Assembly (NCBI GenBank): GCA_014729505.1
Contig: WJJS01000002.1
Span: forward strand, 1-44,073
DNA from: Candidatus Woesearchaeota archaeon
GTDB lineage: Archaea > Nanobdellota > Nanobdellia > Woesearchaeales > ARS49
DNA length: 44,073 nt
Direction of reading: 5' to 3'
The first letter of the stretch is position 1. Each line of letters begins with the position of its first letter. A program made the translations under genes and the position numbers. The notes below the pieces were generated by a model. The model made no database searches. It was not told the origin of the DNA and saw only the letters and a list, made by a program, of their open reading frames with translations. Positions 2,103-38,015 of this stretch are shown here, piece by piece.

Positions 2103-2892
2103 AACGCTGCAAATCCTCATAGACACGGTGAGCAGACTCATAACGATGCTCTGGTTCGCGCTCCAACAAATGAAGAGCAATGTCAGATAATCTCGTCGGC
2201 ACGTCATCATACAGATCAGACGGAGCATCAGGCACCTGATAGAGCTGACGCAAACGCAGACTCTCAACAGAATCTGCAACAAAAGGATACTCGCCCGTCA
2301 AACAGCGATACAAGGACACGCCAAGACTATACAAATCACAACGCGCAGTACCGCGCAACACCCATAACTCAGGAGCCATATACAACGGAGAACCATACAC
2401 CACTCCCTCTTCATCCAAGGACTCCACGTCAGGATTACAAGACAAACCAAAATCAATAAGTACTGCCTTCTTACCAGTTATCATAATATTATCCGGCTTG
2501 ACATCACGATGCCACACCTCAGAGTCATGACATGCCCGCAGCGCAGAAGAAAGATCTGAAAAAATAGCAGCCGTACGATCAGGAGAAATCCTCGTAGCAC
2601 TTTTCAGCATGCGTCCAAGTGAACGACCACCCACATGCGGAAACACCAAACAAGGCATCTGATCACACTCACTGCGATAATCCAACAAAGAAATTATCGA
2701 TTCATGACGCACACGCTGCAAAGAAGTTTTTTCCCGCACATACGAATGAGTCCCATCGCCAGGAAACTTAATAACAACCAACCCCTGAGGAGAAGTACCT
2801 AAATACACCGGTTGAAAAGAATCATCGATCGGACTAATCGTGCGATAAGGACCTTTTCCAAGAGCGCCGCGAAACCACAAAGACTGACCCAT
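2074..2892 (-). CDS. Eukaryotic-like Ser/Thr protein kinase (second of tandem pair)
   Basis: This 272-residue protein is a stand-alone kinase domain with nearly all Hanks motifs: VVIKF with Lys42, an alpha-C Glu54, HRDVKPDN with Asp130 and Asn135, DFG with Asp147, GSPLYMAPE (167-175) and CDLYSLG with Asp186. It should therefore be an active ATP-dependent protein kinase. The glycine-rich loop is degenerate. No sensor, membrane helix or extra domain is attached, so substrate choice must come from partners. I start at ATG 2892, two bases after the stop of the upstream kinase, with a GGAG upstream; a start at 2943 would add 17 unconserved residues and overlap the neighbour by 50 bases. The pair is surely co-transcribed. 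Confidence 0.9.
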   Translation of the reverse strand: MGQSLWFRGALGKGPYRTISPIDDSFQPVYLGTSPQGLVVIKFPGDGTHSYVREKTSLQRVRHESIISLLDYRSECDQMPCLVFPHVGGRSLGRMLKSATRISPDRTAAIFSDLSSALRACHDSEVWHRDVKPDNIMITGKKAVLIDFGLSCNPDVESLDEEGVVYGSPLYMAPELWVLRGTARCDLYSLGVSLYRCLTGEYPFVADSVESLRLRQLYQVPDAPSDLYDDVPTRLSDIALHLLEREPEHRYESAHRVYEDLQRFRTKSNRAA

Positions 2893-2893
2893 A

Positions 2894-3937
2894 CTATGCT
2901 GCTCTCCGCGGCCGAGAAATAACCGGCTTGTTCTGCTCTTCAATCAGTCTACGAGCTTCTTCAAACGTCGGATATTGTGAAAGATCGCGATCAGGCAATA
3001 ACTGAACCGTTTCCGCCTTTGCAAGAGCGCCCTTGTTCACCGCGATATAAGCTTTACGCTCTCGAGGAACCGCGCGCAACGTAGTAACAAATTCCTGTGC
3101 ACTAGACAAACGATCCTCAGGTTTAGTTTGCAAAGCATGCAAGACTACATCAGATAACTCGACAGGAATTGAAGGATCAATATCGGTTAGCGGCGTTGCC
3201 TTTCCATGAAGACGCGTGCGAATAGTATTAGACATACTTTGCATGGCCAAATCAACATATGCCGAACCATCAGGCCCGTCAAGAAATGCAGGATCAATAC
3301 CTCTTGAAGGATTCCTGCGCACCATCTCACGCAATTGTTCTCGAAACCATCCCCTATACGGATCTTGACCAGTAAACAATCCATGAGCAAGCACGCCAAG
3401 CGAATACACATCGCTTCTGGCATCCGCATTACCAGCAAAAGCCTCAGAGCTCATATAGAGAGGGGTGCCAAAAACCGAATCATCTTGAGGTGTCATCCAG
3501 GAAGGAAAATCAGGATGATCGCACAAACCATAATCGAGGAGCACGACATCATCGCCAGTGCGCATCACATTTGCAGGCTTCACATCGCGATGAACAAAAC
3601 CGTGCGCGTGCGTATCAACCAAACCTTCAGCGATCTTTTGGACAATCGAGATACCCTCAAACAAGGGCAAGGGATCTGAAGATTCATACAATGTTTTCCC
3701 AGAAATGAAAGGAAACACAATATATTCAGGACCTGCATCGAGCACCTTGACAACCCTCTCACTATCAATAGTAGTTAACGCACGGCGCTCACGCTCAAGA
3801 GGAAACACATCATGCACTTCATCGCCCTGCATTTTGATAACGCACCGAGCGTTGGTCTTCTTATCATAGGCCAGGTACGCGCCCTGAGCAGTGCCGCCAA
3901 GCCTGTCCCGTATTTCGTATCGCAGAGGTAATGTCAT
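2894..3937 (-). CDS. Eukaryotic-like Ser/Thr protein kinase (first of tandem pair)
   Basis: This 347-residue kinase opens with a canonical lobe (YEIRDRLGG...VIKM with Lys35, Glu50), then HRDVKPAN (Asp118, Asn123), a DYG in place of DFG (Asp135) and GTPLYMSSE where APE is usual. Catalytic residues are kept, so activity is plausible despite the variant activation segment. The domain ends near residue 290; about 55 further residues contain a basic segment and a C-terminal RPRR. ATG 3937 is preferred: AAGGTG lies just upstream and a TTTATAAA box at 3975-3982 would give a leader of about 16 bases. An upstream in-frame ATG at 3967 is too close to that TATA. It leads the two-kinase operon. Confidence 0.9.
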   Translation of the reverse strand: MTLPLRYEIRDRLGGTAQGAYLAYDKKTNARCVIKMQGDEVHDVFPLERERRALTTIDSERVVKVLDAGPEYIVFPFISGKTLYESSDPLPLFEGISIVQKIAEGLVDTHAHGFVHRDVKPANVMRTGDDVVLLDYGLCDHPDFPSWMTPQDDSVFGTPLYMSSEAFAGNADARSDVYSLGVLAHGLFTGQDPYRGWFREQLREMVRRNPSRGIDPAFLDGPDGSAYVDLAMQSMSNTIRTRLHGKATPLTDIDPSIPVELSDVVLHALQTKPEDRLSSAQEFVTTLRAVPRERKAYIAVNKGALAKAETVQLLPDRDLSQYPTFEEARRLIEEQNKPVISRPRRAA

Positions 3938-3974
3938 ACTGCACCTTTTTGCAGTACACTCAGGCAATTCAGCC

Positions 3975-4078: not shown

Positions 4079-4936
4079 TCACTTCGCACTCAGCACCTCA
4101 TAAAAAGCATCATAAATAGGCGTTTCAGTCGACACGGTGTAAAACGAAGAATTCGTCTCTTCACACAGCTGCTTAATCGCAGCATTATGCTTGGAGAGTA
4201 AACGCAAATACTTCTTACGCAGCGCAGGAGAAATATACGTGCGTAACACATCAGAGGTTTCCAAATCCTTCAACTTATACGAGCCTTCAAGCATCAATTT
4301 CAATTCCACAGGATCCAACACCTGCACAAATTTTACCTGATTCTTGCGCAACTTCAACAATACATTCTTAATCTCGTCAAGATCATACAAGAAATCAGAG
4401 ATGACAATCACCAAACTCTTAGAATCAATCAAACGCTTGTAACTAGAAATCGAACTTTCAAACGAGGTCTTACCCTTTGGCTTACGATTATTCAACACAT
4501 CAAACATCTGCGCAAGTTGACGACGACCTCGCTTAGGACGATACGTAAGCAAACGTTCATCAAAAGTCGACAAGACAAAACGTTCATTGTTACGAAGAGC
4601 AATATACGCAAAACCAATAGCCATCATCGCAGCATACGTCGACTTCAACATCTTATGAGAACCAAAACCCATACTACCACTAAAATCAACAAGGACATGC
4701 ACCGTCAAATTACGCTCTTCTTCAAACCGCTTGATAAACAGTTTGTCAGTGCGACCAAAGACTTTCCAATCAACATGACGAATATCATCACCCTCAGTAT
4801 AAATCGTGTGATCTGCAAACAACAAACCCTGACCAATCTCCTTAGACCGTCGCTCACCAGAATAGTTCGACGTGAGATTCTTACGAATAATCAACGTGAG
4901 CTTATCCAACTTTTGCAAAAACGAAAGATCAATCAT
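4079..4936 (-). CDS. DUF58 domain protein (vWA-like), MoxR partner
   Basis: This 285-residue soluble protein matches the DUF58 family: the segment SGERRSKEIGQGLLFADHT, then EGDDIRHVDWKVFGRTDKLF and FEEERNLTVHVLVDFSGSMG, where DFSGS is the metal-site motif of a von Willebrand A-like fold. DUF58 proteins are almost always encoded next to MoxR AAA+ ATPases and act in assembling or maturing surface or metal-containing complexes. Here its ATG overlaps the MoxR stop codon (4936), so translation is coupled. It is the last gene of a six-gene operon and is followed by an inverted repeat. Length is typical of the family. Confidence 0.93.
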   Translation of the reverse strand: MIDLSFLQKLDKLTLIIRKNLTSNYSGERRSKEIGQGLLFADHTIYTEGDDIRHVDWKVFGRTDKLFIKRFEEERNLTVHVLVDFSGSMGFGSHKMLKSTYAAMMAIGFAYIALRNNERFVLSTFDERLLTYRPKRGRRQLAQMFDVLNNRKPKGKTSFESSISSYKRLIDSKSLVIVISDFLYDLDEIKNVLLKLRKNQVKFVQVLDPVELKLMLEGSYKLKDLETSDVLRTYISPALRKKYLRLLSKHNAAIKQLCEETNSSFYTVSTETPIYDAFYEVLSAK

Positions 4937-5868
4937 TAGAACAGTTTCTTGATCAGATCATCATGCGACAAACCCTCACGCTCCGCTTCAAACGTCGGAA
5001 TAATACGATGACGAAGCACAGGAAACGCCATTTCCTTAATATCTTCAGTACTCACATATTTACGACCCTGCAACAACGCACGAGCCTTTGCAGCAAGCGT
5101 CAAACCAATAGACGCACGAGGAGACGCACCATACTCAATCAAGTCCTTCATATTACGAGACTTATTAACTATCTTCACGATATACTGCTGCAAATCATTC
5201 TTAATCGGCACCTGCCGCGTCAAACGCTGCAATGCAGCAAGATCAGTTTTACGAAGCACTTTACGCAAAGTCGGAATCCTCGTATCACCACCATACATGT
5301 CAACAATACCCAACTCCTCCTCAACAGTCGGATACTCAACAAGAACCTTTAACAAAAAACGATCAGTCTGCGCTTCAGGCAAAGGATACGTACCCTCCTG
5401 TTCAATAGGGTTCTGCGTTGCCAACACAAAAAAAGGCGCATCAAGCTCATACGTCTCATTACCAACAGTAACCTGACGCTCCTGCATCGCCTCTAACATC
5501 GCCGCCTGCGTTTTAGGCGTTGCACGATTAATCTCATCAGCAAGCACGATATTGGCAAAAACAGGACCTTTTCGAAACTTAAAACTCCTTCTCCCAGACG
5601 AAGACTCCTCAATAATAGTCGTACCAGTAATATCCGAAGGCATTAAATCCGGCGTGTTTTGAATACGGGAAAAAGACAAATCCAGAACCTGCGCCAAGGT
5701 TTTAATTGCCAAGGTCTTGGCAAGACCAGGATACCCCTCCATTAACACATGCGAATTCGTCATTAAACCAGTAAGCAATTGCTGCACCATATCCTGCTGG
5801 CCAACAATCACCTTACTCATTTCATTAAAGAGCGCGTCGACGGTGCGTTTAACATCCTTGACTTCCAT
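4936..5868 (-). CDS. moxR: MoxR-family AAA+ ATPase
   Basis: A 310-residue MoxR ATPase. Motifs in order: Walker A GYPGLAKT (about 45-52), the conserved RIQNTPDLMPSDITGT block, Walker B VLADEINR with the MoxR signature ATPKTQAAMLEAMQE, sensor ATQNPIEQEGTYPLPEAQTDRF (in two pieces here) and a C-terminal helical lid with GASPRAS. MoxR proteins are chaperone-like remodellers that work with vWA-domain partners. It sits between a membrane protein (5871-6695) and DUF58, with a GGAGG-like ribosome site just before ATG 5868. All catalytic residues are present. Confidence 0.96.
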   Translation of the reverse strand: MEVKDVKRTVDALFNEMSKVIVGQQDMVQQLLTGLMTNSHVLMEGYPGLAKTLAIKTLAQVLDLSFSRIQNTPDLMPSDITGTTIIEESSSGRRSFKFRKGPVFANIVLADEINRATPKTQAAMLEAMQERQVTVGNETYELDAPFFVLATQNPIEQEGTYPLPEAQTDRFLLKVLVEYPTVEEELGIVDMYGGDTRIPTLRKVLRKTDLAALQRLTRQVPIKNDLQQYIVKIVNKSRNMKDLIEYGASPRASIGLTLAAKARALLQGRKYVSTEDIKEMAFPVLRHRIIPTFEAEREGLSHDDLIKKLF

Positions 5869-23527: not shown

Positions 23528-23568
23528 TCGCCGCAGGCGAAAAGAAACGAAAACGCGAAGCGTTTCCG
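23528..23568. repeat. Two tri-loop mini-hairpins beside tRNA-Pro(CGG)
   Basis: TCGCC-GCA-GGCGA (23528-23540) and a 9-3-9 hairpin at 23548-23568 (stem CGAAAACGC/GCGTTTCCG, one mismatch, loop GAA) lie directly next to the 3' end of the tRNA. Loop size and flanking CCGAT match the hairpins inside the insert at 23702-23753. Confidence 0.5.
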
Positions 23569-23569
23569 A

Positions 23570-23642
23570 TGGGACTGCCAGGATTCGAACCCGGGTCAGG
23601 CGGCCCCGAACCACCAAGGATACCAAACTACCCCACAGTCCC
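23570..23642 (-). tRNA. tRNA-Pro (anticodon CGG)
   Basis: The reverse strand folds as a complete cloverleaf: acceptor GGGACTG/CAGTCCC with A73, D arm GGGT...ATCC, anticodon stem GGTGG/CCGCC with loop TTCGGGG (anticodon CGG) and T arm CCGGG-TTCGAAT-CCTGG. CCA is not encoded. A TTTAAA box near 23671-23676 lies about 30 bases upstream. It reads CCG codons. A second gene-like copy of its first 46 bases lies upstream (23687-23790). Confidence 0.93.
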
Positions 23643-23686
23643 AATACTGCACAGCAGGATGGTTCGAGAATTTAAACATTATGCCA

Positions 23687-26708: not shown

Positions 26709-26730
26709 AGAGTGCTGTGAAGACACCATA

Positions 26731-26804
26731 TGGGGTTACCCGGATTCGAACCGGGGTCTTTTGGTCCCAAACCAAAAAGTATAGCCAAGCTAACCCATAA
26801 CCCC
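26731..26804 (-). tRNA. tRNA-Pro (anticodon UGG)
   Basis: The reverse strand folds as a cloverleaf: acceptor GGGGTTA/TAACCCC with A73, D arm with GGTTAGC...GGCTATACT, anticodon stem TTTGG/CCAAA and loop TTTGGGA (anticodon UGG), and T arm ending CCGG-TTCGAAT-CCGG. CCA is not encoded and no intron is seen. TTATAA at 26835-26840 lies about 34 bases upstream. Confidence 0.94.
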
Positions 26805-26834
26805 ATGAGTATTCCACTCAGCCATCGCAAGCGA

Positions 26835-26849: not shown

Positions 26850-28865
26850 TCAGTCAGTATATTGCAGACAAGTGTCGCAAATGAGGTTTAGCGCATCATG
26901 TTCTGGCACCGCGGCATACATGTCTGACAATAATTTACAGACATAAGCACCTCGTACCATCCATCGTCTTTTATCCTCGGCAAACTCTTGATGCGCGTAG
27001 TTTCTATCGTGAAACGATTTGAGAGCGAAGTCAACTACGTACCACAAGTAAGTCTGAAAGAACTCCTCCCTGTCCTCGATAGGCTCATGACGATATCTCG
27101 ACCCGACAGCAGTGTTAAACTCTGTAACTGCTTTATTGTAAGATTCTATATATCGATCAAGCAAGCGCGTCAGCGTACCACTCTCTATGGGATTTTTCTC
27201 TCCCTGAAAACGGAATCGAAAGAGAACTCCGTCGGACATATCCGTGCTATGTTCGAACAATTTTACCAAATCATACTGCGGACCGTCAAGTTGTGTGGAT
27301 TCAAAATCTATTGGCACCGTTACCCCCTGTTTTTCAATCCAGTTTAGCGGATTTGCATCTTTGACAAACACATTGCTTTTCCGTTGACCAATACGCTGTG
27401 CAACAGTGCGATACGCTTGAAGTACAGATTCTCGATCCTCCTCGACAAAACCATGACCTTCTGCCATGCGATCAGTCAGACTCCTCACGAAATCCTCATC
27501 CTGGCGAGGGCAAATGAAAGGTACTTTATGCAAAAGATGAGATGGACCTACTGCATGAATAATCGCCAACTGATCAACAGCATCCTCGAGCAAAGACGCC
27601 GGATCCGGATCTTCCTTTAAGGCCTGACGAAGCGTCACACCTGGAAGAGCACCGTACGCATTTACCACATTTCCTTGACCCACCAGTTCTTCAACATAGG
27701 ACGGGATCCGTTCCAAATGCATTGATTCAAGAGGCAAACGCAAAGACCTTGCAGATTCCAGCTGTCGATGAACAGGAGCGTGATTTTGAGAATAACCCCG
27801 CAAGGTATCAGTCCAGCCGCGAACAGCAATTCTTCCACTGCGTATGCTTGCAAAATAGTTTAGAATCCAACTCTCATCACGACTAACTCTGGGAGCAGCA
27901 GCTTTGTACACATAAGGACCAATACGAAAAACCGTGTGCGTCGACATACCAGGAAGCAAAGGTTGAGCTTGATGAACCCTGCCAAGAAGTACTGTTGCGG
28001 CCCGAAGACCGTCGACAAAATACAAGCTGGGCGTTTGCGCCGCTTGAGGAAACTGCGCAATAGACGCCTGTGTAACATTGAGAACCTCATCAATGAGATC
28101 GGCAGCTTCATCACGATTGTCAGTATCATAATGCGATTCTACATACGAAAAATACGTGTGCGCAACCAGGGAACGCGCGGCAAAGCCATTACCAGCGTCT
28201 GCAATAGACCCATGAGCGTCATCAAGACAGCGAACAAACTCTTCAGGATCAGTCGTAGGAATGGCACAGGCAAATAACTGCCGGCTCTCCTCATAACGTC
28301 GCTGATTGGTCCTCACTATGCCTGCACATAATGTTGCCGCACGACGAAAACCGAGCTCTTGAGACCGTGGCGCCAAAAAGTGGTAGACCCGATATGCGCT
28401 ATCGGACAGTCCTGCTTCATAGAGATTTTGTCCGATAGAGTACAAGGACCGTTCTACTTGGTCTCGGATCACTCTGCGTGAGGCCAGAGGAATAGTTGAT
28501 TGAATCTCGCCAAACAAATCTATAGCAAGATCCTCGAGGTTGATTCCTGGATCTTGAGCTACGCGCACCATACCGCGAAGAGCAAGAGCGCTTGTATGTT
28601 GGGAAGCTTGACGTTCATTTCTTACTCTGCTTGGAAACAACATGCTAACAGCTCTTCTGGCAGTTGACCAGTCCTGCTCACGTACGGCATCAAAAACCTT
28701 GTTTGTTCGTCTAACAGTAGAACTCTGTTGGAACGTCGTTGCAAAAAATTCGGAAAGACTCGTTAGCTCTACAGGTTGCGGATCTCGAATTATCTCAATA
28801 GGCCTTGACGATCTGCTGCGACGCTTTTGAGCACGATTCTTTTGTCTGCGGGTTTTGCGCGCCAT
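26850..28865 (-). CDS. Helical-repeat / APH-like kinase paralogue 1
   Basis: This 671-residue protein has a basic tail (residues 1-22, nearly half Arg and Lys), a helical, TPR-like half to about 300, and a kinase-like C-terminal half. Motifs: THTVFRIGPYVYK (Lys321), RDESW (Glu331), hinge VNAYGALPGVTL (401-412), DQLAIIHAVGPSHLL, catalytic loop VKDANPLNWI (Asp503, Asn508) and PIDFES (Asp520), then GPQYDLVKLFEH. This layout follows aminoglycoside phosphotransferase-fold kinases, with VKD in place of HGD. The last 70 residues (YVVDFALKSFHDRNYAHQEF) are conserved in all four paralogues. TTATAAAA at 28889-28896 is 27 bases before ATG 28865. Substrate unknown. It stands apart from the other three paralogues. 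Confidence 0.85.
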   Translation of the reverse strand: MARKTRRQKNRAQKRRSRSSRPIEIIRDPQPVELTSLSEFFATTFQQSSTVRRTNKVFDAVREQDWSTARRAVSMLFPSRVRNERQASQHTSALALRGMVRVAQDPGINLEDLAIDLFGEIQSTIPLASRRVIRDQVERSLYSIGQNLYEAGLSDSAYRVYHFLAPRSQELGFRRAATLCAGIVRTNQRRYEESRQLFACAIPTTDPEEFVRCLDDAHGSIADAGNGFAARSLVAHTYFSYVESHYDTDNRDEAADLIDEVLNVTQASIAQFPQAAQTPSLYFVDGLRAATVLLGRVHQAQPLLPGMSTHTVFRIGPYVYKAAAPRVSRDESWILNYFASIRSGRIAVRGWTDTLRGYSQNHAPVHRQLESARSLRLPLESMHLERIPSYVEELVGQGNVVNAYGALPGVTLRQALKEDPDPASLLEDAVDQLAIIHAVGPSHLLHKVPFICPRQDEDFVRSLTDRMAEGHGFVEEDRESVLQAYRTVAQRIGQRKSNVFVKDANPLNWIEKQGVTVPIDFESTQLDGPQYDLVKLFEHSTDMSDGVLFRFRFQGEKNPIESGTLTRLLDRYIESYNKAVTEFNTAVGSRYRHEPIEDREEFFQTYLWYVVDFALKSFHDRNYAHQEFAEDKRRWMVRGAYVCKLLSDMYAAVPEHDALNLICDTCLQYTD

Positions 28866-28888
28866 GACTCATTTGCGCCACCCACACC

Positions 28889-28896
28889 TTATAAAA
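28889..28896 (-). promoter_or_regulatory. TATA box of kinase-like paralogue 1
   Basis: TTATAAAA is centred 27 bases before ATG 28865. It lies just beyond the 3' end of the small membrane gene (stop at 28901). Confidence 0.5.
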
Positions 28897-28900
28897 TTTA

Positions 28901-29146
28901 CTACTCTTTAGTGAAATTATTCTTGGTTTTTGGCCATAAGGTGCCGCAGAAAACCATAAACACCCCGCCCATAAAGAGCAAAGTCATTATCGCCGTTGTC
29001 TCACTGACCGTTTTGGAAGCGTCGGCAACAGCCATGCCCGTAATACTCGGCGCGTCAAGCAACCAAAACGTAACGCTGTGAGCACCACCAGCAACAAGCC
29101 ATACGGCTACTACCATAGCGCCAACCACTATTAACTTCGTATTCAT
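28901..29146 (-). CDS. Small two-helix membrane protein (81 residues)
   Basis: ATG 29146 has a TATATAA box at 29169-29175, 26 bases upstream. The 81-residue product has an N-terminal helix (KLIVVGAMVVAVWLVAGG), an outer loop with SVTFWLLDAPSITGMAVADA, and a second helix (TTAIMTLLFMGGVFMVFCGT) before a short basic tail. The second and first helices are of normal membrane length. No family is recognised. It runs in the same direction as kinase-like paralogue 1 but each has its own promoter. Confidence 0.75.
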   Translation of the reverse strand: MNTKLIVVGAMVVAVWLVAGGAHSVTFWLLDAPSITGMAVADASKTVSETTAIMTLLFMGGVFMVFCGTLWPKTKNNFTKE

Positions 29147-29176
29147 ATCTTTTGTTAAGGACTTCTCCTATATAAC

Positions 29177-29551
29177 CTATTCGTCGTTCAAATCACGCAC
29201 GTGCTCGACTAGCAAATCAACGAGGACCGGTCGCGGACTTCTTAACCTGCGCATAGAGATACGTCGCGTATTAAGTACAATTCCTTCATCCACTCGCACA
29301 GCATACCGCGAACCCGCCCGATGGCGCATCATCGCAACGAGCAAAACATTCTCATTCTTTTTGAGGGCTGTCCGAGCAGAAGGCGTCACCCACACATACT
29401 CTTTGCCCGACTGATAACGCAAACCCAGCAGTCCCGCCTCAGTAGGCACTAGCTCAAAAGACACTTCTGGCAGGCCCCGCCATACCTCGTAGAAAATCTG
29501 ACCCTGTTTTACCCGCCCAGGATCTGGCGTATACACGACGTGATGCAACAT
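29177..29551 (-). CDS. Hypothetical beta-rich protein (124 residues)
   Basis: I start at ATG 29551, seven bases after GGAGG (29559-29563); a longer in-frame reading would run back through the neighbour gene. The product MLHHVVYTPDPGRVKQGQIF is rich in beta-strand-like segments (SFELVPTEAGLLGLRYQSG, KEYVWVTPSARTALKKNENV) and basic residues (RRISMRRLRSPRP), ending VDLLVEHVRDLNDE. It is soluble and small and may bind nucleic acid, judging only by charge. It follows the 112-residue gene, separated by a T-rich stretch that may partly terminate transcription. Confidence 0.65.
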   Translation of the reverse strand: MLHHVVYTPDPGRVKQGQIFYEVWRGLPEVSFELVPTEAGLLGLRYQSGKEYVWVTPSARTALKKNENVLLVAMMRHRAGSRYAVRVDEGIVLNTRRISMRRLRSPRPVLVDLLVEHVRDLNDE

Positions 29552-29564
29552 ATTTCCGCCTCCA

Positions 29565-29592
29565 GAAAAGAAAAAAAGAAAAAAAAAGGCCT
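29565..29592 (-). terminator. T-tract between 29592 and 29551 genes
   Basis: After the stop near 29592 the coding strand reads AAGGCC followed by T9, C, T7, C, T4. Such T-runs terminate archaeal transcription, so the downstream gene may be expressed at a lower level. Confidence 0.45.
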
Positions 29593-29930
29593 TAGGAAGC
29601 CATGCGGTACTTGACGCCGAGGTCAACGCGAGCATTTGCCGGATGTCGTCCGACATCGTCTTGGAGCCGTTCGACAAGCGCATATGCTCTGCGCTCCTTT
29701 TTAGGCAGTCCAGGACGCATTTCTCGCACCATGACAGGTAACACATACAAGTCTCCACCCGCTTGCAGTGCGACCGTTTTATACATTCTAGCGGTCATAC
29801 CCGTCAAACCTCCAAGAGGTTCAACCGTACGGCTAATATCCCCAGCACAATCTTCTGGAGAGTATTTGCGGTCTCGTTCAAATCGTACGCCAATGCGGCG
29901 CAATTCTTTTTGTATGTGTTCGTTTTTCAT
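29592..29930 (-). CDS. Hypothetical basic protein (112 residues)
   Basis: ATG 29930 follows CGGAGGAAAACC, a strong ribosome site. The 112-residue product MKNEHIQKELRRIGVRFERD is basic, with a middle of mixed strands (GGLTGMTARMYKTVALQAGG, DLYVLPVMVREMRPGLPKKE) and a C-terminal helix plus VGRHPANARVDLGVKYRMAS. It has no cysteine cluster beyond a single Cys and no membrane segment. The leader from the TATAAA at 30000-30005 contains a GC-rich palindrome and an eight-codon upstream ORF that ends across the start codon. No family is recognised. Confidence 0.7.
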   Translation of the reverse strand: MKNEHIQKELRRIGVRFERDRKYSPEDCAGDISRTVEPLGGLTGMTARMYKTVALQAGGDLYVLPVMVREMRPGLPKKERRAYALVERLQDDVGRHPANARVDLGVKYRMAS

Positions 29931-29966
29931 GGTTTTCCTCCGCCGCCTTTCATCGCTTCACTGCGG

Positions 29967-30005
29967 CCTCGCGAGGGGGGACCTCGCTTGTAACATTCAT
30001 ATAAA
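29967..30005 (-). promoter_or_regulatory. Promoter with GC-rich palindrome before the 112-residue gene
   Basis: TATAAA at 30000-30005 predicts initiation near 29976, inside the perfect palindrome CCTCGCGAGG (29967-29976). A further CCTCGC at 29982-29987 pairs with GCGAGG at 29971-29976. Placement at the start of transcription fits an operator. Confidence 0.4.
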
Positions 30006-30014
30006 CACAGAAAC

Positions 30015-30084
30015 ATTAGTATTTGACCCAGAATGTATTATTATGCATTATAACATACTAATTTAGCGACAAATATTTATATTA
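30015..30084 (+). promoter_or_regulatory. Promoter and inverted repeats before the AbrB-PhoU gene
   Basis: ATTAGTAT (30015-30022) pairs with ATACTAAT (30055-30062), and a near-palindrome AATGTATTATTATGCATT lies between them. ATTTATATTA at 30075-30084 is the likely TATA; transcription would start near 30104, followed by GGGTGA (30111-30116). The repeats may be an operator for the downstream DNA-binding PhoU protein. Confidence 0.4.
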
Positions 30085-30120
30085 TGATTATCTGTAAGAA
30101 AAAATAATACGGGTGAAATC

Positions 30121-31044
30121 ATGAAAAGAAAAGTCTCTCGCATAGGACCTGCAACACTCATGGTCAGTCTGCCCTCACAATGGGTGAAAGAAAACAAAGT
30201 CGAAAAAGGACAGGAAATCGACGTAGTCCCACGAGGCAACAAACTACTCATACAAACAGATACAGCGGCAAAAACATACAAAACAACACTGGATCTGCGC
30301 ACACCAACAACAGCAACACAAAACTACATAGGACACCAAGCACGAACAGTAAAACAACTGTACCGCTTCGGCGTCGATGAAATCACCATACAATACAATG
30401 ACAAACGAGTAATCAGACAAATACAACACGAAATACAACGACAACTCCTAGGATTTGAAATCGTCAGCCAGGGCGACAAAGTCTGCACAATCAAAAATAT
30501 AGCTGCAGGACTTGACTCGGAATTCAACGCTGTTCTACGACGACTCTTCTTTCTTACTATGTCAATGGCAGATGACGCCCTTGACGCGATGAAGAAAAAA
30601 GACAAAGAACGACTTGAAGAAATGCCATCCATGGAAATGACACAAAACAAACTGCACAACCTCTGTGAAAGAATGCTCAACAAACACGGCTTTGAAGACA
30701 ACAAATGCACGACACTCATTTACGCACTCGTACGCCAACTCGAAGAAGTTGGAGACGCACTACGAGACGTAAGTCTGTACGCACTTGAAAGAAATCTCAA
30801 CATGCCAAAACCATTCCTTGAAAAATTCGCATCAATAAACAAAGAACTGCGAGCATTTCACGACGTGTTCTACAGTTACGACATCGACAAAGCAAGCAGT
30901 CACAAAGAACGACACAATGCGCTTCGAAAAGAATGTATCGAATTGCTCACCAAAGCAAAACCAGGAGACGGGCGATACTACCATTATCTCGTCGTGCTTC
31001 TGCTCAAAATAAACGATATGGGCGCAAGCTTTCGTCTAGTGTAA
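30121..31044 (+). CDS. AbrB/SpoVT-PhoU phosphate uptake regulator
   Basis: This 307-residue protein joins an N-terminal SpoVT/AbrB-type swapped-hairpin DNA-binding domain (MKRKVSRIGPATLMVSLPSQ, residues 1-45) to PhoU-like helical bundles (about 100-305; MADDALDAMKKKDKERLEEM and RQLEEVGDALRDVSLYALER). In archaea such proteins are linked to control of phosphate transport. The Pst transporter genes are not in this window, so the regulon is not visible. ATG 30121 is preceded by GGGTGA. Inverted repeats before its TATA suggest autoregulation. It converges with the PHP gene, overlapping by nine bases. Confidence 0.92.
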   Translation: MKRKVSRIGPATLMVSLPSQWVKENKVEKGQEIDVVPRGNKLLIQTDTAAKTYKTTLDLRTPTTATQNYIGHQARTVKQLYRFGVDEITIQYNDKRVIRQIQHEIQRQLLGFEIVSQGDKVCTIKNIAAGLDSEFNAVLRRLFFLTMSMADDALDAMKKKDKERLEEMPSMEMTQNKLHNLCERMLNKHGFEDNKCTTLIYALVRQLEEVGDALRDVSLYALERNLNMPKPFLEKFASINKELRAFHDVFYSYDIDKASSHKERHNALRKECIELLTKAKPGDGRYYHYLVVLLLKINDMGASFRLV

Positions 31045-31851
31045 GAAATGAAAAAAATCATCTCTTGAAACACCTGCATCACCTAATTGAATGCGAAAGC
31101 GACTGCCGTGATAATCAGAACCTCCAGTAATCGGAAGGCCAAGACCCCACGCCATATTGCAGGCCTTTCTCACAATATCCAAGTCCTTTTTCTTACTGCG
31201 ACACTCAATACCATCAATGTCCTGCTCGTCTAATTCGACAATGAGATCTTCAACATTACCATACTCACCAGGATGAGCAAGAGACACTCTGCCCCCTCCT
31301 TCATGAATCGCATCAATGACTTCCTTAGTGGAATGAGGAATAGGTTCCGCAGGCACTGCTGCAAAACCTCCGACACCACCATACTTGTCAGAACGGGAAT
31401 GCATGTCAACAACAGGGACAGGAGTATCGATCCTTTTCGCAACGAATTGAGCGATTTGAAAACGAGCCAAATATCCTTTGTGAGGAATATCTTCAAAACA
31501 GAAATCAAAACCTCGTTTCTTGTACCTTTCAATTATCTGACGAGCACGTCTATTATGCTGATCACATTGTTCTTTACAAATCCTGGCCAACTCCGGCGTG
31601 TGCTTCATCCCATACCCTAAGAGATGAACTTCCTGAGTTGACGCTCTTGCATATAATTCAATACCGGTCGTCGAAATCAATTGGAATCGTTTTGCATAAA
31701 ACAATGACTCATCCCAGTGATCCATCACACTATGATCAGTGATCACAACACCTGCAAGACCACGATGCGAGGCATGTCTCATCAACTCCTCAGGACTGTC
31801 AGTACCATCAGAGTACCAACTGTGAGTCTGCATATCAACCAGATTATACAT
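31036..31851 (-). CDS. PHP-domain phosphoesterase
   Basis: This 271-residue protein has the four PHP metal motifs: DMQTHSWYSDGTDSPEELM (motif I), VVITDHSVMD (II), STTGIELYAR (the metal-binding Glu), VSLAHPGEYGN (III) and ITGGSDYHGS (IV). It resembles the YciV/TrpH group, which act as 5'-3' RNA exonucleases or 3',5'-nucleotide bisphosphatases. ATG 31851 overlaps the end of kinase-like paralogue 2 by eight bases, so it is the last gene of a four-gene operon with three kinase-like proteins. A phosphatase paired with three predicted kinases hints at a shared phosphorylated substrate; this is inference. Confidence 0.9.
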   Translation of the reverse strand: MYNLVDMQTHSWYSDGTDSPEELMRHASHRGLAGVVITDHSVMDHWDESLFYAKRFQLISTTGIELYARASTQEVHLLGYGMKHTPELARICKEQCDQHNRRARQIIERYKKRGFDFCFEDIPHKGYLARFQIAQFVAKRIDTPVPVVDMHSRSDKYGGVGGFAAVPAEPIPHSTKEVIDAIHEGGGRVSLAHPGEYGNVEDLIVELDEQDIDGIECRSKKKDLDIVRKACNMAWGLGLPITGGSDYHGSRFRIQLGDAGVSRDDFFHFLH

Positions 31852-33949
31852 TATTACCCTCGTCAAATCGCCGATAATACCGTTCAAACACTGTTGCCAG
31901 AACTGCAAGCGATGCCTTATCTGCAATTCTTACTGTTTCTTGTCCCATCAACTGTCTAGTCGCCTCGACACCTCGCTTCATCCAATCGCGCTTTTGACTT
32001 TGAAACTCAGGATGTGCATAATTGGGATCGTGAACCGATTTAATTACAAAATCAATCACATATGCCTCATAGGTTAAAAAGAATTCCTTAAGGTCATCTA
32101 TAGTCTGCTTGTGACAACGCCCAGGAACCTGCGCATTAAAACGTCGTACCGCGTCATTGTACGTTCCACGATACTGCGCTATCAATACACTCTTAGTTGT
32201 CTGATCAAGATGTTGAACATGCTCTAAGAATTTGACCAAATCATACTGAGGTCCGGCCAATTGTGCAGACTCAAAATCAACTGCCGTCATCAAACGAGGA
32301 TCATTATCGCGCACAATCCAATTCAACGGATTAGCATCCTTAACATACGTAGTCACCTTGCGATTATCCAACATCCTAGCGACTGAAGAGAACGCGTCGC
32401 GAACACGATCCTTGTCAGCTGAAGTAAATCCTTCGCCCTCATCCATCTTTTTCATAGTGGAGCTCTGATAATACTTTCCGTCGTGAACAACAGCAAAAGG
32501 CACGGATTCCAACAAATGCTGAGGACCAAACGCATGAATATTTGCAAGCTGATAAAGACCATGACGATACGCCTCTTCAATGCGCCCAGCACTTTGATCA
32601 TCAAGCAAAAAATCACGGAAATGAGGTCCTGGCAGGCGACCATAACACAGGATCACCTCTTCGTCTTGAAAGAACTCTGCGACATGAGGAGGGATCCACT
32701 CATGGGCCAGACGCAAAATATTTTCACCAATTTCAATACGAGGAGGGTCATTCATCAGATCAGTCAGTCCCTCAGTGCGTTCAAGAGTTCCCGTACCATT
32801 ATCAAACATACCTTTAGTATCAATAACACCCCGACGAACGAACATAAAATATCTGTTCATGAAATGCTCGTTTTCGATCATCCGATTTTCACCAAGTTTA
32901 TACACATGATCGCCAAGACTAAACACTTTGTGACGAGTTCTTCCTTCAAGTATTCGAGACAATTGATGGACATGTTCTGCCAATGGTCGAACTGCATTAA
33001 GACAACGAACAGACAATTCAGAACGCCCACCAATTGCAACCAGTTGGGGAATCAGTACTTCGTCACGAAAATGAAGATACGGCGCTCGCTCTTGTTCAGA
33101 AGCATCAGCATAGACCGCATCCAGCGCGATAAAAAGTTTTGAGAGAAAAGTAACAGATTCACTGGCACTTGCTGACATCGCATCATCGCGATCCTGAGTT
33201 AATGCACGACAAGAATAACGCAATAGCCATGCCTCGTGCATTACTTCCCCAAGAATATCAGCGCACACCTCGGGTTGATCAAACTGCAAAATATTTGCAA
33301 ACTGTTTTCGGGCAAGAACATAATTACCAGTACCATACCAGGATAAAGTGTTCTCCAACATAAAATACCACGCAGAAGGATCGGGCGCCTTTCTCTGTGC
33401 TGCCCGTGCAAGAACTGTCGTCGATAACCACGTCAATCCATACTTATCCGCATCCTTGGCAAGTTCCATGACAAAACGATCCAGTGCCTTCTCATCATAG
33501 CCTTCAGCATGTAAATCGTAACGAGATAACTCCCGATCCAAAGTAGTCCTATACCACCCAAACATTCGCTCCTCTTCCCACAACACACCCTCACGCTGCT
33601 GGGCAACAAGTTCTCCCATCAAACTCCAATGCAAGAGCGAATCACGAATAGCGCAAGGAAAACGCTGGGCCCTTGCCTGCCGATACAATCTTTTGGCCGT
33701 CACAGATTGTCCTTTTCGCAAAGCATCATCAGCAAATACCAGTTGTTTGGCAATAGTTTCCAAACCTTCTGCCCGGGTACCAAGATGAAGAAATCGAAAA
33801 TAATCAGAAAAAGTCCGAAAATGATCTTTAGCACAACAAGTCGCAGACCCATTATTGCCAGAATTATTGCGCTTTTTTGCAGTACTCCTTTTCTTTTTCT
33901 CCTGTCGCTTCCTGCGACGTTTTCTTTTTTGCTCAGCACGATTAGCCAT
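31844..33949 (-). CDS. Helical-repeat / APH-like kinase paralogue 2
   Basis: This 701-residue protein begins with a very basic tail (MANRAEQKRKRRRKRQEKKK, to about residue 30), then a TPR-like helical half (for example GNYVLARKQFANILQFDQPE) and the kinase-like half: RHKVFSLGDHVYK (Lys351), IENEHF (Glu361), LCYGRLPGPHFRDFL, YVKDANPLNWI (Asp538, Asn543), AVDFES (Asp558), GPQYDLVKFLEH and the shared tail YVIDFVIKSVHDPNYAHPEF. The catalytic residues expected for phosphotransfer are kept. ATG 33949 follows GAGG and overlaps paralogue 3 by eight bases; a start at 33970 is possible but less likely. It is the third gene of the operon. Confidence 0.85.
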   Translation of the reverse strand: MANRAEQKRKRRRKRQEKKKRSTAKKRNNSGNNGSATCCAKDHFRTFSDYFRFLHLGTRAEGLETIAKQLVFADDALRKGQSVTAKRLYRQARAQRFPCAIRDSLLHWSLMGELVAQQREGVLWEEERMFGWYRTTLDRELSRYDLHAEGYDEKALDRFVMELAKDADKYGLTWLSTTVLARAAQRKAPDPSAWYFMLENTLSWYGTGNYVLARKQFANILQFDQPEVCADILGEVMHEAWLLRYSCRALTQDRDDAMSASASESVTFLSKLFIALDAVYADASEQERAPYLHFRDEVLIPQLVAIGGRSELSVRCLNAVRPLAEHVHQLSRILEGRTRHKVFSLGDHVYKLGENRMIENEHFMNRYFMFVRRGVIDTKGMFDNGTGTLERTEGLTDLMNDPPRIEIGENILRLAHEWIPPHVAEFFQDEEVILCYGRLPGPHFRDFLLDDQSAGRIEEAYRHGLYQLANIHAFGPQHLLESVPFAVVHDGKYYQSSTMKKMDEGEGFTSADKDRVRDAFSSVARMLDNRKVTTYVKDANPLNWIVRDNDPRLMTAVDFESAQLAGPQYDLVKFLEHVQHLDQTTKSVLIAQYRGTYNDAVRRFNAQVPGRCHKQTIDDLKEFFLTYEAYVIDFVIKSVHDPNYAHPEFQSQKRDWMKRGVEATRQLMGQETVRIADKASLAVLATVFERYYRRFDEGNNV

Positions 33950-35864
33950 GAGAACCTCTGTAGGAATCACATATTTTTGCTAAACGTTGCAGAGCGCTAC
34001 GCTCATCATCACTAAAGTCAGGCATTTCCAGCATTGCAGAAACAACTTCAGCGCCGCGACGCATCCATTGTCGACGAGCTTCGGCAAATTCCTCAAAACG
34101 ATAATGAGGATCATGAATGGATTTTACACAAAAATCGACAACATATGCCAGATAATCACGACGAAAAGCAGCAAGATCTGTAATCAAAGGCTTTGCAGCT
34201 TTTGGAGCTTGAGAATTAAAGGCGAGCGCAGCAGCATTATATTCATTGTAGTAACGATCAAGCAAACATTCTTTTGTCTCTTCGGACAATACAGGAACAT
34301 GCTCAAGAAGTTTTGCAAGATCATAACCAGGCCCTGCGATCTGTACCGATTCAAAATCCACAGGCATAATGCATTCCGGCTGATGCGGAAGAATAATCCA
34401 ATTCAGCGGATGTGCATCCTTTACCCACGAATCAATCGATCGCCGTTCAAGACAGCGAGCAAGAACCTCATATCCCGGACGGGCGAATTCCCACTCTCCT
34501 CTCGTCCATCCATGGCCTCTTTCAATACGCCCGTCCATAGATTCAACATAAAACTGCGCGTTGTGAGGTTCGTTACCTTCCACCACCTCAAGCAAATGTT
34601 TTGGTCCGACAGCATGAAGACGCGCGAGCTGATCAATAGCAGGACCACAAACCTGTTCATGATCCACACCAGGTTGTTGCAAATACTCAAAAAGCAACTG
34701 TCCAGGAATCAATCCATAACCAATAACCACTTCGTTTGGAGGAAAAACATGTTGCAAATGCGGAGGAATACCGGTACCCGAAAGACGAAATGCAATCGAG
34801 GGAGTTCTAGTCGGACCAATGGCAGAAAGATCAATAGACACCCCATCAGCAACATGCTGCGAATGCTCATCGTCACACATCACACTCAAAGGCACTCTAC
34901 CATCACCCAATGATTTAAAATAACTCAACACCCACGCCTCATTGGAAATAGCGTCACTCGTACCCCCCTTAAATGCATACTCATTGAGACGAAAAACCCG
35001 GTGAGTTGTTCTCTTCTCAAACATTTGGGAAAGCTCATCGTGATGAGCATAAAGGGTCTGCATTGCAGCAAAGCCTTCGCTAATAGACTGAAAAGAACGT
35101 GCATCAAACCGTTCCTTCAATGCTGACTGCACCTCACCAAACCATTTATGAAAAACAATACGTTCATTAGTGCAGGGCCCAGTAGAATACAACGCAAGCA
35201 ATCCATGCAACACATGCATCACTTTGTGAATCGACAGCGTTGTCGTTGACCAGTTGTGATCTCTTGTTTCCTGTTCTCCCCGCTCATAAAAAAAAATCGC
35301 TCGAGGATCTGCACTTTTTGAAAAACCAAAGAGCTTGCCAAACAGCTCACGGGCTTTTTGATACTCCCCGGCATGATATTCTTCAACAGCACTCCTCACC
35401 AGATTAGTGAACTGGCGAAGAGGTTCGCGAGAATAACAGGCAGCATGAGCATGATATTTTGCAGACAAGGAGTACTGTTCCCAATTGCTCAAACAATCTG
35501 CAATACCTGTTGAATGCGCTTCATGATTTGAGCGAAGTCCATGCATCATAATAAAACCATGAGGCAAAGTCTCATCAACAGCAGCTTCAACAATGCGCTG
35601 TACCAACTCTCTAGGATCAGGATCAGACACAAGAGCTTCAAGAGCACCTTCTGCATCCAATGAACTATTCACCATCAAGACATATTCTTCATGCGGCAAC
35701 TCTATTTCACGGGCTCGCCTAAAACACTGCCTCGCCTCGTCATAATTGCCGCGATACATCTCTTCTTCACCCACTATCATCTGTCTCGTCGCTTCAATAA
35801 ATGGTCCTTCCTTTACAACATCCCGATAACGAAAGAAATGATTAATCTGCGGTTTCTCTTTCAT
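33942..35864 (-). CDS. Helical-repeat / APH-like kinase paralogue 3
   Basis: This 640-residue paralogue lacks the basic tail of the others and starts MKEKPQINHFFRYRDVVKEG. Its helical half contains TPR-like units (EEEMYRGNYDEARQCFRRAR, EEYHAGEYQKARELFGKLFG). Kinase-like motifs are THRVFRLNEYAFK (Lys299), ISNEAW (Glu309), IGYGLIPGQLLFEYL, WVKDAHPLNWI (Asp483, Asn488; His replaces the first Asn of relatives), PVDFES (Asp503), GPGYDLAKLLEH and YVVDFCVKSIHDPHYRFEEF. ATG 35864 overlaps the stop of paralogue 4 by four bases (ATGA), so translation is coupled. Second gene of the operon. Substrate unknown. Confidence 0.85.
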   Translation of the reverse strand: MKEKPQINHFFRYRDVVKEGPFIEATRQMIVGEEEMYRGNYDEARQCFRRAREIELPHEEYVLMVNSSLDAEGALEALVSDPDPRELVQRIVEAAVDETLPHGFIMMHGLRSNHEAHSTGIADCLSNWEQYSLSAKYHAHAACYSREPLRQFTNLVRSAVEEYHAGEYQKARELFGKLFGFSKSADPRAIFFYERGEQETRDHNWSTTTLSIHKVMHVLHGLLALYSTGPCTNERIVFHKWFGEVQSALKERFDARSFQSISEGFAAMQTLYAHHDELSQMFEKRTTHRVFRLNEYAFKGGTSDAISNEAWVLSYFKSLGDGRVPLSVMCDDEHSQHVADGVSIDLSAIGPTRTPSIAFRLSGTGIPPHLQHVFPPNEVVIGYGLIPGQLLFEYLQQPGVDHEQVCGPAIDQLARLHAVGPKHLLEVVEGNEPHNAQFYVESMDGRIERGHGWTRGEWEFARPGYEVLARCLERRSIDSWVKDAHPLNWIILPHQPECIMPVDFESVQIAGPGYDLAKLLEHVPVLSEETKECLLDRYYNEYNAAALAFNSQAPKAAKPLITDLAAFRRDYLAYVVDFCVKSIHDPHYRFEEFAEARRQWMRRGAEVVSAMLEMPDFSDDERSALQRLAKICDSYRGSHG

Positions 35865-37873
35865 AACACCGCCCCAACAGTATTAGCAAACACCTCTTGC
35901 ATTGCACGAAGTCTTTTCACTTCAGTTTCGTCATACTGATGATTTTGTATCAACCAATCAACTGCATCAACACCCCGACGCAACCATCCCCGCTTTAGTC
36001 CATCAAATTCCGGCAATATGTAGTTTGGATTGTTGACACACTTCACGACGTGATCAACAACATAGTTCTCGTAAGTAACCAGGAACCTATCACTATCTTC
36101 AATTTTTTGACGAGCATATGCGGATGGTACTGCAACAGTGAAATCATCACAAATAGCATTGAAATCACGAATATATTCACCCATCAATCCTTCGCGCTGT
36201 TCTCGTGACAAGTGCTGTCGATGCTCCAAAAGCTTTACCAGATCATAGCCCGGACCTGCAAGTTTTGCCGATTCAAAATCAATAGGAATAATATGAGGAA
36301 AAGTGTCTTCAACAACCATCCAATTGAAATGATTTGCATCCTTGACGTACGTTGTTATTGCGCGATTGCCAAGAGCAGAAGCAATAACGTCATATCCTCG
36401 ACGTACAAGTTCCTGCTGGGCAGCAGAAAAAAATCCTGATCGACGCATAAGAGTGCTTACATGACGCCGGTAAGAGCGTGCATCATCAGCATGAATGAAC
36501 GGCACCTGTTCAAGTAAATGCTGAGGACCAAATCCATGAAAACATGCTATCTGTCGCACAACTTCCTGATAGATCGGTACTGGATCTTCAACGTTTTCGA
36601 AGTACTGATGCAAAGTCATCCCTCCAATCACGTCATAGGCTGCAACAGCCTCGATTTTTGGACTGTTCATTACACAACGACTTTGATGACCATTAAGCAT
36701 CCACAAATGACTTGGAAGCGCAAAAAGACTGCCAAAAGACGAGGAATGCACCACCGTTTCTCCTTCAACAAAAGTTCCTTCACCAGTTCTGCCAACACCC
36801 TGCAATTGAATAATTCCGTCGCGAACGGCAAGAAAATACCGGTGAAAAAAACTTTCATTTACGACTGTTTTTGACTTACTGACCTTGTAGACATAAGGCC
36901 CTGCCTGCACGACACGATGAGTATTTCGACCCTTATTTAATTCAGCAGCAGCATCATAATCACGACACAAACAGACAAGCGCATCAATGGTTTGCTTTCC
37001 GCGCTCAAATAAAACTCCCTGAGCTTGCATTATAGTAGCAGCAGCTTCTTGCGCAAGAGATATCCTTTTATCATCGTGATCGAGTGCAAAGGCGATAATT
37101 ATATCCTGAACAGCCGCCTGCACTTTGGCACCAGCAAAAGTAATATTTTCAGCATCATAAGATCCTCTAAGCAAACCATCGTGATACCACCCAATAATAC
37201 TCTGGGAAAAGGACTCTTCAGATGCAAAATCAACAGCGGCGCAAAACTTCCTTCGCGCATCTGCCACACGTCCAGAACGAAGTAACACTGTTCCACTACG
37301 CATAGCAACATCCTGCTTTGAAGCGTCATCATATGAGAACATATCGGCGAGATCAAGACATCTTGCGGCGAGATCATAGCGATGCGCGAAGATTAACTTG
37401 TCCTGCAAGGCAAGAAACACCATCTGCATAGAGGCTTTCTCCAAAAGGTTCGCGTTAACAATGGCGTTAGCGTAATTACGATATCCAACAGCAGAATCTA
37501 AAGGACAGCCAGCAGCAAGAAAAAAATCTGCAATTGTCGGATCGGATTTCTCCATCAGGCGAATCGCGTTACGCCAGTAAGTGGCCTGAAATCGAGCGTT
37601 ATCAAGTCGTCTCGATTTTGATTCAATTATCCGCGTAAACAACGACCTTGCAGTCTCAAAATCTCCTCGACGCACCGATCGTTCTGCTCGACGATGCACC
37701 ATACGGGCCCTGTCCTGTATATGTTGCGTTTCCAAGACACGATCAACAAAGAAATCATTGAGAGGAATAGGAATAAGCAGTTCCTCCAAAGGAGGCTTGA
37801 CATTTGAAAACTCCTGTACTGGAGTGTTTTTTTCTCGACGATTGCCTTTCCTTTTGTGTTTTCTGCGCCCCAT
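35861..37873 (-). CDS. Helical-repeat / APH-like kinase paralogue 4, operon leader
   Basis: This 670-residue protein starts with a basic tail (MGRRKHKRKGNRREK), then helical repeats (RSVRRGDFETARSLFTRIIE, RSGRVADARRKFCAAVDFAS) and the kinase-like half: THRVVQAGPYVYK (Lys330), VVNESF (Glu340), AAYDVIGGMTLHQYF, YVKDANHFNWM (Asp512, Asn517), PIDFES (Asp532), GPGYDLVKLLEH, and YVVDHVVKCVNNPNYILPEF. A long insert (about 360-405) lies between the alpha-C and hinge regions. It opens an operon of paralogues 4, 3 and 2 and then the PHP gene. No clear TATA sits at 27 bases; TTATAACAATATT near 37918-37930 would give a longer leader. Confidence 0.85.
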   Translation of the reverse strand: MGRRKHKRKGNRREKNTPVQEFSNVKPPLEELLIPIPLNDFFVDRVLETQHIQDRARMVHRRAERSVRRGDFETARSLFTRIIESKSRRLDNARFQATYWRNAIRLMEKSDPTIADFFLAAGCPLDSAVGYRNYANAIVNANLLEKASMQMVFLALQDKLIFAHRYDLAARCLDLADMFSYDDASKQDVAMRSGTVLLRSGRVADARRKFCAAVDFASEESFSQSIIGWYHDGLLRGSYDAENITFAGAKVQAAVQDIIIAFALDHDDKRISLAQEAAATIMQAQGVLFERGKQTIDALVCLCRDYDAAAELNKGRNTHRVVQAGPYVYKVSKSKTVVNESFFHRYFLAVRDGIIQLQGVGRTGEGTFVEGETVVHSSSFGSLFALPSHLWMLNGHQSRCVMNSPKIEAVAAYDVIGGMTLHQYFENVEDPVPIYQEVVRQIACFHGFGPQHLLEQVPFIHADDARSYRRHVSTLMRRSGFFSAAQQELVRRGYDVIASALGNRAITTYVKDANHFNWMVVEDTFPHIIPIDFESAKLAGPGYDLVKLLEHRQHLSREQREGLMGEYIRDFNAICDDFTVAVPSAYARQKIEDSDRFLVTYENYVVDHVVKCVNNPNYILPEFDGLKRGWLRRGVDAVDWLIQNHQYDETEVKRLRAMQEVFANTVGAVL

Positions 37874-38015
37874 AACTGTGACATGTGCATTACTAGACTC
37901 TAATGACTATCTTAATATTGTTATAATATTAGAAAACACACCGCGCACTACATATATAAGTTTTACTACTAATAAGGAGTTTATTTGGCGGCCGAACTTT
38001 CTACACTTCATAGTT
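37874..38015. promoter_or_regulatory. Promoter region of the kinase-like/PHP operon
   Basis: AT-rich region with TAATATTGTTATAATATTA (about 37912-37930), which is nearly palindromic and holds the best TATA candidate for the leftward operon. There is no small ORF with a ribosome site. The upstream gene in the same direction ends at 38016. Confidence 0.35.

Follow-up and report, generated by a model that had tools for sequence, protein, structure and literature searches.

A stretch of 44,073 nucleotides from a Candidatus Woesearchaeota archaeon, hereafter the window, devotes about 8 kb to four kinases grouped around a single regulator. Little is known of sensing and regulation in DPANN archaea whose genomes are close to 1 Mb in size. 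The initial annotation of the window described a local expansion of four paralogues in a small archaeal genome, which the host genome size of 1.05 Mb bears out, and regarded them as a four-member family that points to a dedicated, apparently undescribed pathway. Here we examine the kinases, their relatives and their genetic context (Table 1).

Table 1. Features of the kinase locus in the window
Feature	Position	Strand	Remarks
Kinase paralogue 1	26850..28865	-	671 aa; outside the operon, across the AbrB-PhoU gene from it
AbrB(MazE-like)-PhoU fusion regulator	30121..31044	+	307 aa; faces the operon tail-to-tail, with 9 bp of overlap
PHP-domain phosphoesterase	31036..31851	-	271 aa; ATG overlaps the paralogue 2 stop by 8 bp
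Kinase paralogue 2	31844..33949	-	701 aa; modelled; start overlaps preceding stop by 8 bp
Kinase paralogue 3	33942..35864	-	640 aa; VKDAHPLNW, VDFES; start overlaps preceding stop by 4 bp
Kinase paralogue 4	35861..37873	-	670 aa; opens the operon; VKDANHFNW, IDFES
Candidate archaeal BRE/TATA-like element aaaacTTATATATg	37951..37965	-	upstream of the first start codon of the operon by about 80 bp; by eye only

The four paralogues are present as first described, all on the minus strand, and form one clade (SH-aLRT 99) in a tree of 79 family domains, although the family extends beyond them. Paralogues 2-4 are 26-29% identical to paralogue 1 over their full length, the best pairwise identity of the kinase domains reaches 36-41%, and the invariant columns in the alignment of the four cluster in the C-terminal half. 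The kinase motifs reported initially are confirmed: Lys321, Glu331, VKD (503), Asn508 and D520-F-E-S (paralogue 1 numbering) are invariant in all four. The tail given as YVxDxxxKxxxxPxY is correct in general but not at its P, where paralogue 1 has R (Y-V-x-D-x3-K-x4-[PR]-x-Y).

In the AF2 model of paralogue 2 (pTM 0.74), residues 61-325 are helical and an APH fold spans about 330-690, with pLDDT mostly above 90 in the kinase half. The predicted fold is two-lobed with an APH-type C-lobe, and the catalytic Asp, Asn and metal-binding Asp of the APH/choline-kinase superfamily are present. In the PDB, Foldseek matches the model to APH and choline kinases (3dxp, E 2.6e-5; 1j7l, E 5.9e-5; target-normalised TM up to 0.62), and a profile compared with PDB sequences matches 3csv (2e-4) and LicA 4r77 (0.008); the fold search in viral structures returned nothing below 1e-3. 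All four proteins miss the Pfam APH (PF01636) gathering cut-off of 23.2 bits, scoring 14.7-18.8, and their relatives L014, L015 and L112 exceed it with 44.6, 40.6 and 48.7 bits. These relatives and the Foldseek matches uphold the prediction of an APH-like kinase fold; the view that no named family fits the four is likewise supported, and NCBIfam gave no useful match for them.

The description of the N-terminal half as TPR-like is supported for its helices and depends on few matches for TPR itself. This half is all-helical, at moderate confidence, in the paralogue 2 model, and poorly resolved when modelled separately (pLDDT 43). No TPR match exceeds the cut-off in any of the four, the one sub-threshold match being to TPR_2 at residues 33-54 of paralogue 3 (22.9 bits against 27, E 8e-5), and a few relatives have TPR matches (TPR_14 in 4/48, TPR_2 in 4/48). 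Paralogue 4 combines a basic N-terminus with the helical N-terminal half and the APH-fold C-terminal half. The family excludes the 736-aa TPR protein of L113, whose gene converges with another AbrB-PhoU gene and which was not retrieved among the kinases.

The notion of an isolated four-member family does not survive comparison with other genomes. A tblastn search of genome contigs with alignment A1 returned no named relatives of the four, and none were found in viral contigs. The kinase family occurs in at least 59 of the 353 genomes of its order (Candidatus Woesearchaeota), and related orders have it too; the host genome carries two more members, one at C13 and the other at C3. Among 48 full-length members the catalytic Asp is kept in 47 and the metal Asp in all, the active-site Asn being present in 40 and replaced by Gln in 8. 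The usual family motif is NKD[AS]HPENW, HGD being rare; VKD, correctly read in the four, is a local variant, and a departure from HGD is nothing unusual within the family. The N-terminal halves of the family are large, variable and rich in repeats or TM segments, 33 of 77 members having a TM-like segment. The divergent family is thus widely distributed in Woesearchaeota, and the four paralogues represent a local expansion of it.

The strongest result concerns a regulator gene that recurs beside these kinases. The window regulator, which was absent from the initial finding, carries a PhoU domain above the cut-off (28.5 bits against 23.5) and a putative AbrB/MazE DNA-binding N-terminal domain that matches MazE_antitoxin at 21.9 bits against a cut-off of 24.7 and is conserved at its N-terminus across relatives. 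It is the counterpart of a regulator found tail-to-tail with a kinase gene across the order. Of 72 loci collected with a kinase-only bait, 41 have an AbrB-PhoU gene that converges with the kinase gene at a distance of no more than 400 bp, against a chance expectation under 1% (binomial tail <1e-60 at p = 0.005-0.01), the 3' ends mostly lying at most 80 bp apart or overlapping; within the fetched DNA, no AbrB-PhoU gene was found in 17 of the 72. The reverse bait, AbrB-PhoU, recovers a kinase in 23 of 41 loci, and an Lrp/AsnC gene is divergent from AbrB-PhoU in 35 of 68. Pilin-like clusters lie beside relatives and, as a first guess, may be among the targets of AbrB-PhoU. Since convergent neighbours are not co-transcribed, this linkage implies a shared function, but not which. 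The frequency of AbrB-PhoU genes could suggest an unrelated expansion beside accidental neighbours, their proximity arising from that frequency or from frozen synteny. We give this reading the slightest chance of those considered, as the pairing holds across many families despite varied outer neighbours and very low kinase identity, recurs in other orders (convergent in four of eight genomes, tandem in one) and occurs at three separate places in the host genome, from different lineages.

The second partner is the PHP gene, also missed in the initial annotation. Its ATG lies within the end of the paralogue 2 gene, which gives the operon order kinase-kinase-kinase-PHP, with overlaps of 4, 8 and 8 bp. 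The PHP domain scores 41 bits (cut-off 26.4), retains the metal-binding H/D motifs and is nearest to the RNase RNM / 3',5'-nucleoside bisphosphate phosphatase type. Outside the window, the order kinase-PHP-(convergent) AbrB-PhoU is found in three loci in two other families, one in G035 and two in G261, and the best matches of the window AbrB-PhoU are those of G035 and G261 C7. We rejected a single conserved group of four PHP genes: three of these belonged to the search profile itself, and in single-sequence comparison the window PHP matches that of G035 at 4e-11 and PHPs elsewhere at 1e-26. It thus shows no special closeness to the PHPs at the other loci, and we limit the claim to the common gene order; the PHP slot of the window may have been filled independently.

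These observations are best explained by a signalling module in which a kinase gene stands tail-to-tail with AbrB-PhoU, often with Lrp/AsnC and in some genomes with PHP in the kinase operon; the four paralogues would be a lineage-specific expansion within it. The analysis shows the predicted fold, the conserved catalytic residues, the operon structure and the linkage and spread of the genes, and we infer catalysis, its substrate, the direction of signalling, which protein senses what, and regulation. The N-terminal half would bind a ligand or protein and thereby control the kinase, which would transfer phosphate either to the regulator or to a small molecule or protein that the regulator's PhoU domain reads; the PHP enzyme, where present, would strip the phosphate, and the AbrB domain would convert the resulting state into an output at the level of transcription. 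With four kinases grouped about a single regulator, several inputs could converge. We consider the chances about even for this explanation as a whole, in which the four are enzymatically competent APH-fold kinases and their variable N-terminal halves, acting as sensors or scaffolds, control a kinase activity that ultimately reaches AbrB-PhoU. More tentatively, by analogy with a two-component system, the locus might represent an undescribed archaeal signal-transduction system, widespread in Woesearchaeota, in which AbrB-PhoU transcription factors are under the control of APH-fold kinases whose sensor halves are interchangeable, some genomes add PHP as a phosphatase arm, and the window has four kinases acting on one regulator. 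The individual protein classes are all known, but their architecture and pairing appear undescribed, and our literature searches returned no description of the kinase/AbrB-PhoU pair. The initial interpretation is in part supported, and has to be widened from an isolated family to a kinase-regulator pair that recurs across the order. Pairing across an order at very low identity makes a concrete, testable signalling hypothesis; if true, APH-fold enzymes would join the archaeal regulatory kinases and the abundant AbrB-PhoU proteins would gain a function.

APH-fold enzymes are mostly metabolite kinases, and the substrate of the four might instead be a metabolite such as a sugar or nucleoside, in a surface glycan or salvage pathway, with PHP dephosphorylating a related metabolite and AbrB-PhoU merely regulating pathway genes. 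The window clade branches closest to L180 and L181 (support 90, not starred), free-standing kinases of about 390 aa in apparent surface-sugar loci. By eye, the genes there include glycosyltransferase-, GHMP kinase- and SIS-like ones, and in one locus PHP lies upstream; these loci are consistent with a small-molecule substrate, and the C3 member resembles AmgK besides the protein kinase SrkA. We nonetheless consider a purely metabolic role unlikely, if well short of negligible, given the sensor-like N-terminal halves and a linkage to regulators rather than to a constant metabolic gene set. Improbable, in turn, are pseudokinase scaffolds whose C-terminal domain keeps the fold as a binding platform: the His of HGD/HRD is replaced by V or N and the beta-3 Lys is not alignable across the wider family, but nearly all 48 members keep the catalytic Asp, Asn/Gln and metal Asp, and the four window proteins all have the Lys and the Glu. 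The sub-threshold MazE_antitoxin match and the close linkage of kinase and DNA-binding partner would also suit a kinase toxin under an AbrB/MazE-type antitoxin, in outline like HipA-HipB. This we hold to be very improbable: the genes are convergent rather than in a HipA-type antitoxin-first co-directional operon, AbrB-PhoU outnumbers the kinase (321/353 genomes, often in several copies), the kinases are large with sensor-like domains, and PADLOC models matched neither the four kinases nor AbrB-PhoU nor PHP.

Comparison with known systems places the signalling module proposed here among familiar components. The four share their fold and Lys-Glu-D-N-D order with the APH family (APH(3')-IIIa, APH(2'')-IVa, LicA choline kinase), as well as a P-x-x-D-L segment after the metal-binding motif, but differ in VKDA[NH]xxNW (NKD in the family) in place of the aminoglycoside phosphotransferase motif HGDxxxxN, in the long helical N-terminal half and in their own C-terminal tail; their sequences bear no apparent mark of resistance genes. 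SrkA/YihE, the stress-response protein kinase, is an APH-fold enzyme that acts on proteins, and the C3 member matches it (PRK11768) at E 7e-9, far below the cut-off; SrkA is a single-domain bacterial enzyme that is not known to have a helical N-terminal half or an AbrB-PhoU partner. In bacterial PhoU-PhoR phosphate signalling a PhoU domain is likewise linked with a sensor kinase, but PhoR is a histidine kinase, whereas the window kinases are APH-fold and their PhoU partner carries a predicted DNA-binding domain in the same protein; next to the window locus no Pst transporter was noticed. The AbrB and PhoU architecture recurs in archaeal SpoVT/AbrB-PhoU regulators such as T. kodakarensis TK2245, listed among chromosome-associated proteins (PMC7325993), and in P. 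furiosus PhoU-like proteins count as transcription factors (PMC6316755); unlike the case of the window regulator, the passages on these proteins mention no kinase partner.

A scan for bacterial-type promoters gave no more matches than chance, and a candidate archaeal BRE/TATA-like element lies upstream of the operon (Table 1).

The four kinase genes proposed in the initial annotation are present on the minus strand (see the table). Their alignment spans the full length of the proteins, with invariant columns chiefly in the C-terminal half, and the kinase motifs claimed for them (Lys321, Glu331, V-K-D503, Asn508 and D520-F-E-S, in the numbering of paralogue 1) are invariant in all four. A tree built from 79 related kinase domains groups them in a single clade (SH-aLRT 99); their terminal branches, 0.7-0.9 long, point to ancient or rapidly diverging duplications and not to copies created in assembly. 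Because overlaps of 4, 8 and 8 bp join three of the kinases and the next gene, the kinase-kinase-kinase-PHP phosphoesterase series reads as one putative operon. Paralogue 1 is separate from it, on the far side of a gene for an AbrB-PhoU fusion regulator, which is convergent with the operon (9-bp overlap of 3' ends). Two tRNA-Pro genes lie nearby, the second directly 3' of paralogue 1.

Coordinates of features in the window and in two comparison loci
Feature	Coordinates	Strand	Remarks
Kinase paralogue 1	26850-28865	-	671 aa
Kinase paralogue 2	31844-33949	-	701 aa
Kinase paralogue 3	33942-35864	-	640 aa
Kinase paralogue 4	35861-37873	-	670 aa
PHP phosphoesterase	31036-31851	-	
Putative operon	37873 down to 31036	-	
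AbrB-PhoU	30121-31044	+	
tRNA-Pro (CGG)	23568-23643	-	
tRNA-Pro (TGG)	26730-26805	-	
Eukaryotic-type kinase	2074-2943	-	Pkinase, 115 bits
Eukaryotic-type kinase	2894-3967	-	Pkinase, 77 bits
MoxR ATPase and DUF58 gene pair	4079-5868		
Locus L119	877-2903		genome G141
Locus L113	943-5279		own genome, contig C3

Structure prediction bears out the kinase assignment. The AlphaFold2 model of paralogue 2, computed with 48 family members (pTM 0.74), places most of the kinase half at pLDDT >90, and within the PDB it matches APH and choline kinases best, in concordance with a sequence-profile search of the PDB (3csv, LicA). All four window kinases match Pfam APH only under the curated cut-off of 23.2 bits, which is clearly exceeded by their relatives L014 (44.6), L015 (40.6) and L112 (48.7). 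Since the catalytic Asp (47/48 members), the metal-binding Asp (48/48) and the Asn position (Asn in 40, Gln in 8) are kept across the family, the domain is most likely active. The VKD noted as replacing HGD is indeed seen, but as a local form of the family motif NKD[AS]HPENW; HGD occurs in few members. The N-terminal half, initially described as TPR-like, is all-helical in the model at moderate confidence, but the TPR label remains weak because a separate N-terminal model was too poor (pLDDT 43). TM-like segments occur in this half in 33 of 77 family members, the window four being helical.

A kinase-domain profile search (E <= 1e-5) over 353 genomes of the order recovered family members in 59, and eight sampled genomes from other orders of the class also hold them, so that what had been presented as a four-member family is local only in its fourfold expansion. 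With at most three matches in every other genome searched, this expansion appears peculiar to the lineage at this search sensitivity. Two further members in the same genome, on contigs C13 (L049, 650 aa) and C3 (L112, 792 aa, canonical HGD), sit on other branches; a search of viral contigs found no relatives.

Loci chosen solely for holding the kinase reveal a recurrent partner. Among the 72 with at least 700 bp past the kinase 3' end, 41 carry a convergent AbrB-PhoU gene (~305 aa), a putative DNA-binding regulator, within 400 bp, the 3' ends mostly overlapping or <=80 bp apart. As genomes hold one to about six AbrB-PhoU genes among roughly 1,000-1,500, chance adjacency is estimated at ~0.5-1%, giving a binomial tail <1e-60. 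With AbrB-PhoU as bait, the kinase is present in 23/41 loci; the genomes being largely the same, this changes the bait but does not provide an independent sample. Outside the order, the pair is convergent in four of eight genomes and tandem in one. A Lrp/AsnC-type gene is divergent from AbrB-PhoU in 35/68 cases; in L115-L118 (family f37 genomes) the two stand head to head with no adjoining kinase, which suggests that this regulator pair can exist without it.

The order kinase, PHP, convergent AbrB-PhoU recurs in the single-contig genome G035 and at two loci of genome G261 (contigs C7 and C4). The window AbrB-PhoU finds its best matches in G035 and G261 C7, and in the regulator tree is sister to that of G035 (support 86). 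The PHP slot is shared, but its occupants may not be orthologues: the PHPs of G035 and G261 C7 are close (1e-87), whereas the window PHP matches PHPs elsewhere at 1e-26 and that of G035 at 4e-11. The window enzyme shows similarity, in both cases under cut-off, to RNase RNM and to 3',5'-nucleoside bisphosphate phosphatase. In L217, L210 and L215, PHP genes of another subgroup are divergent from AbrB-PhoU, within ~200 bp. In L119 a calcineurin-like phosphoesterase gene immediately follows AbrB-PhoU. In L113 a PHP-like gene is followed by the gene of a 736-aa protein, which converges on another AbrB-PhoU gene; this protein has TPR repeats (Pfam) and, by eye, a receiver-like N-terminus, and was not recovered by the kinase-profile search.

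APH-fold kinases, AbrB-PhoU regulators and PHP enzymes are already known kinds; the literature covers the AbrB-PhoU regulator TK2245 (PMC7325993) and PhoU-type transcription factors (PMC6316755). Open-access texts yielded no account of APH kinases with a helical half that pair with AbrB-PhoU; should the module be confirmed, it would constitute a novel regulatory system. Most likely, the N-terminal halves would sense or scaffold, the kinase would phosphorylate AbrB-PhoU or something read by its PhoU domain, PHP, where present, would undo this, and AbrB would set transcription. The main rival holds that the window kinases are metabolite kinases, a reading favoured by the apparent surface-sugar neighbourhoods in which the sister branch of their clade sits. 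Pseudokinases, with the catalytic residues conserved, and chance neighbours, with linkage this recurrent, are less likely, as is a toxin-antitoxin pair, with the genes convergent.

Under the regulatory reading, a possible regulon is the cluster of small pilin-like proteins with a large Cys-rich secreted protein that adjoins the kinase/AbrB-PhoU pair in, e.g., L014, L015 and L018; pilin-like membrane-protein clusters, their nature read by eye, occur in 12-18 kinase loci. Elsewhere in the window, two adjacent, overlapping eukaryotic-type protein kinase genes near the MoxR-DUF58 pair form a second kinase cluster.
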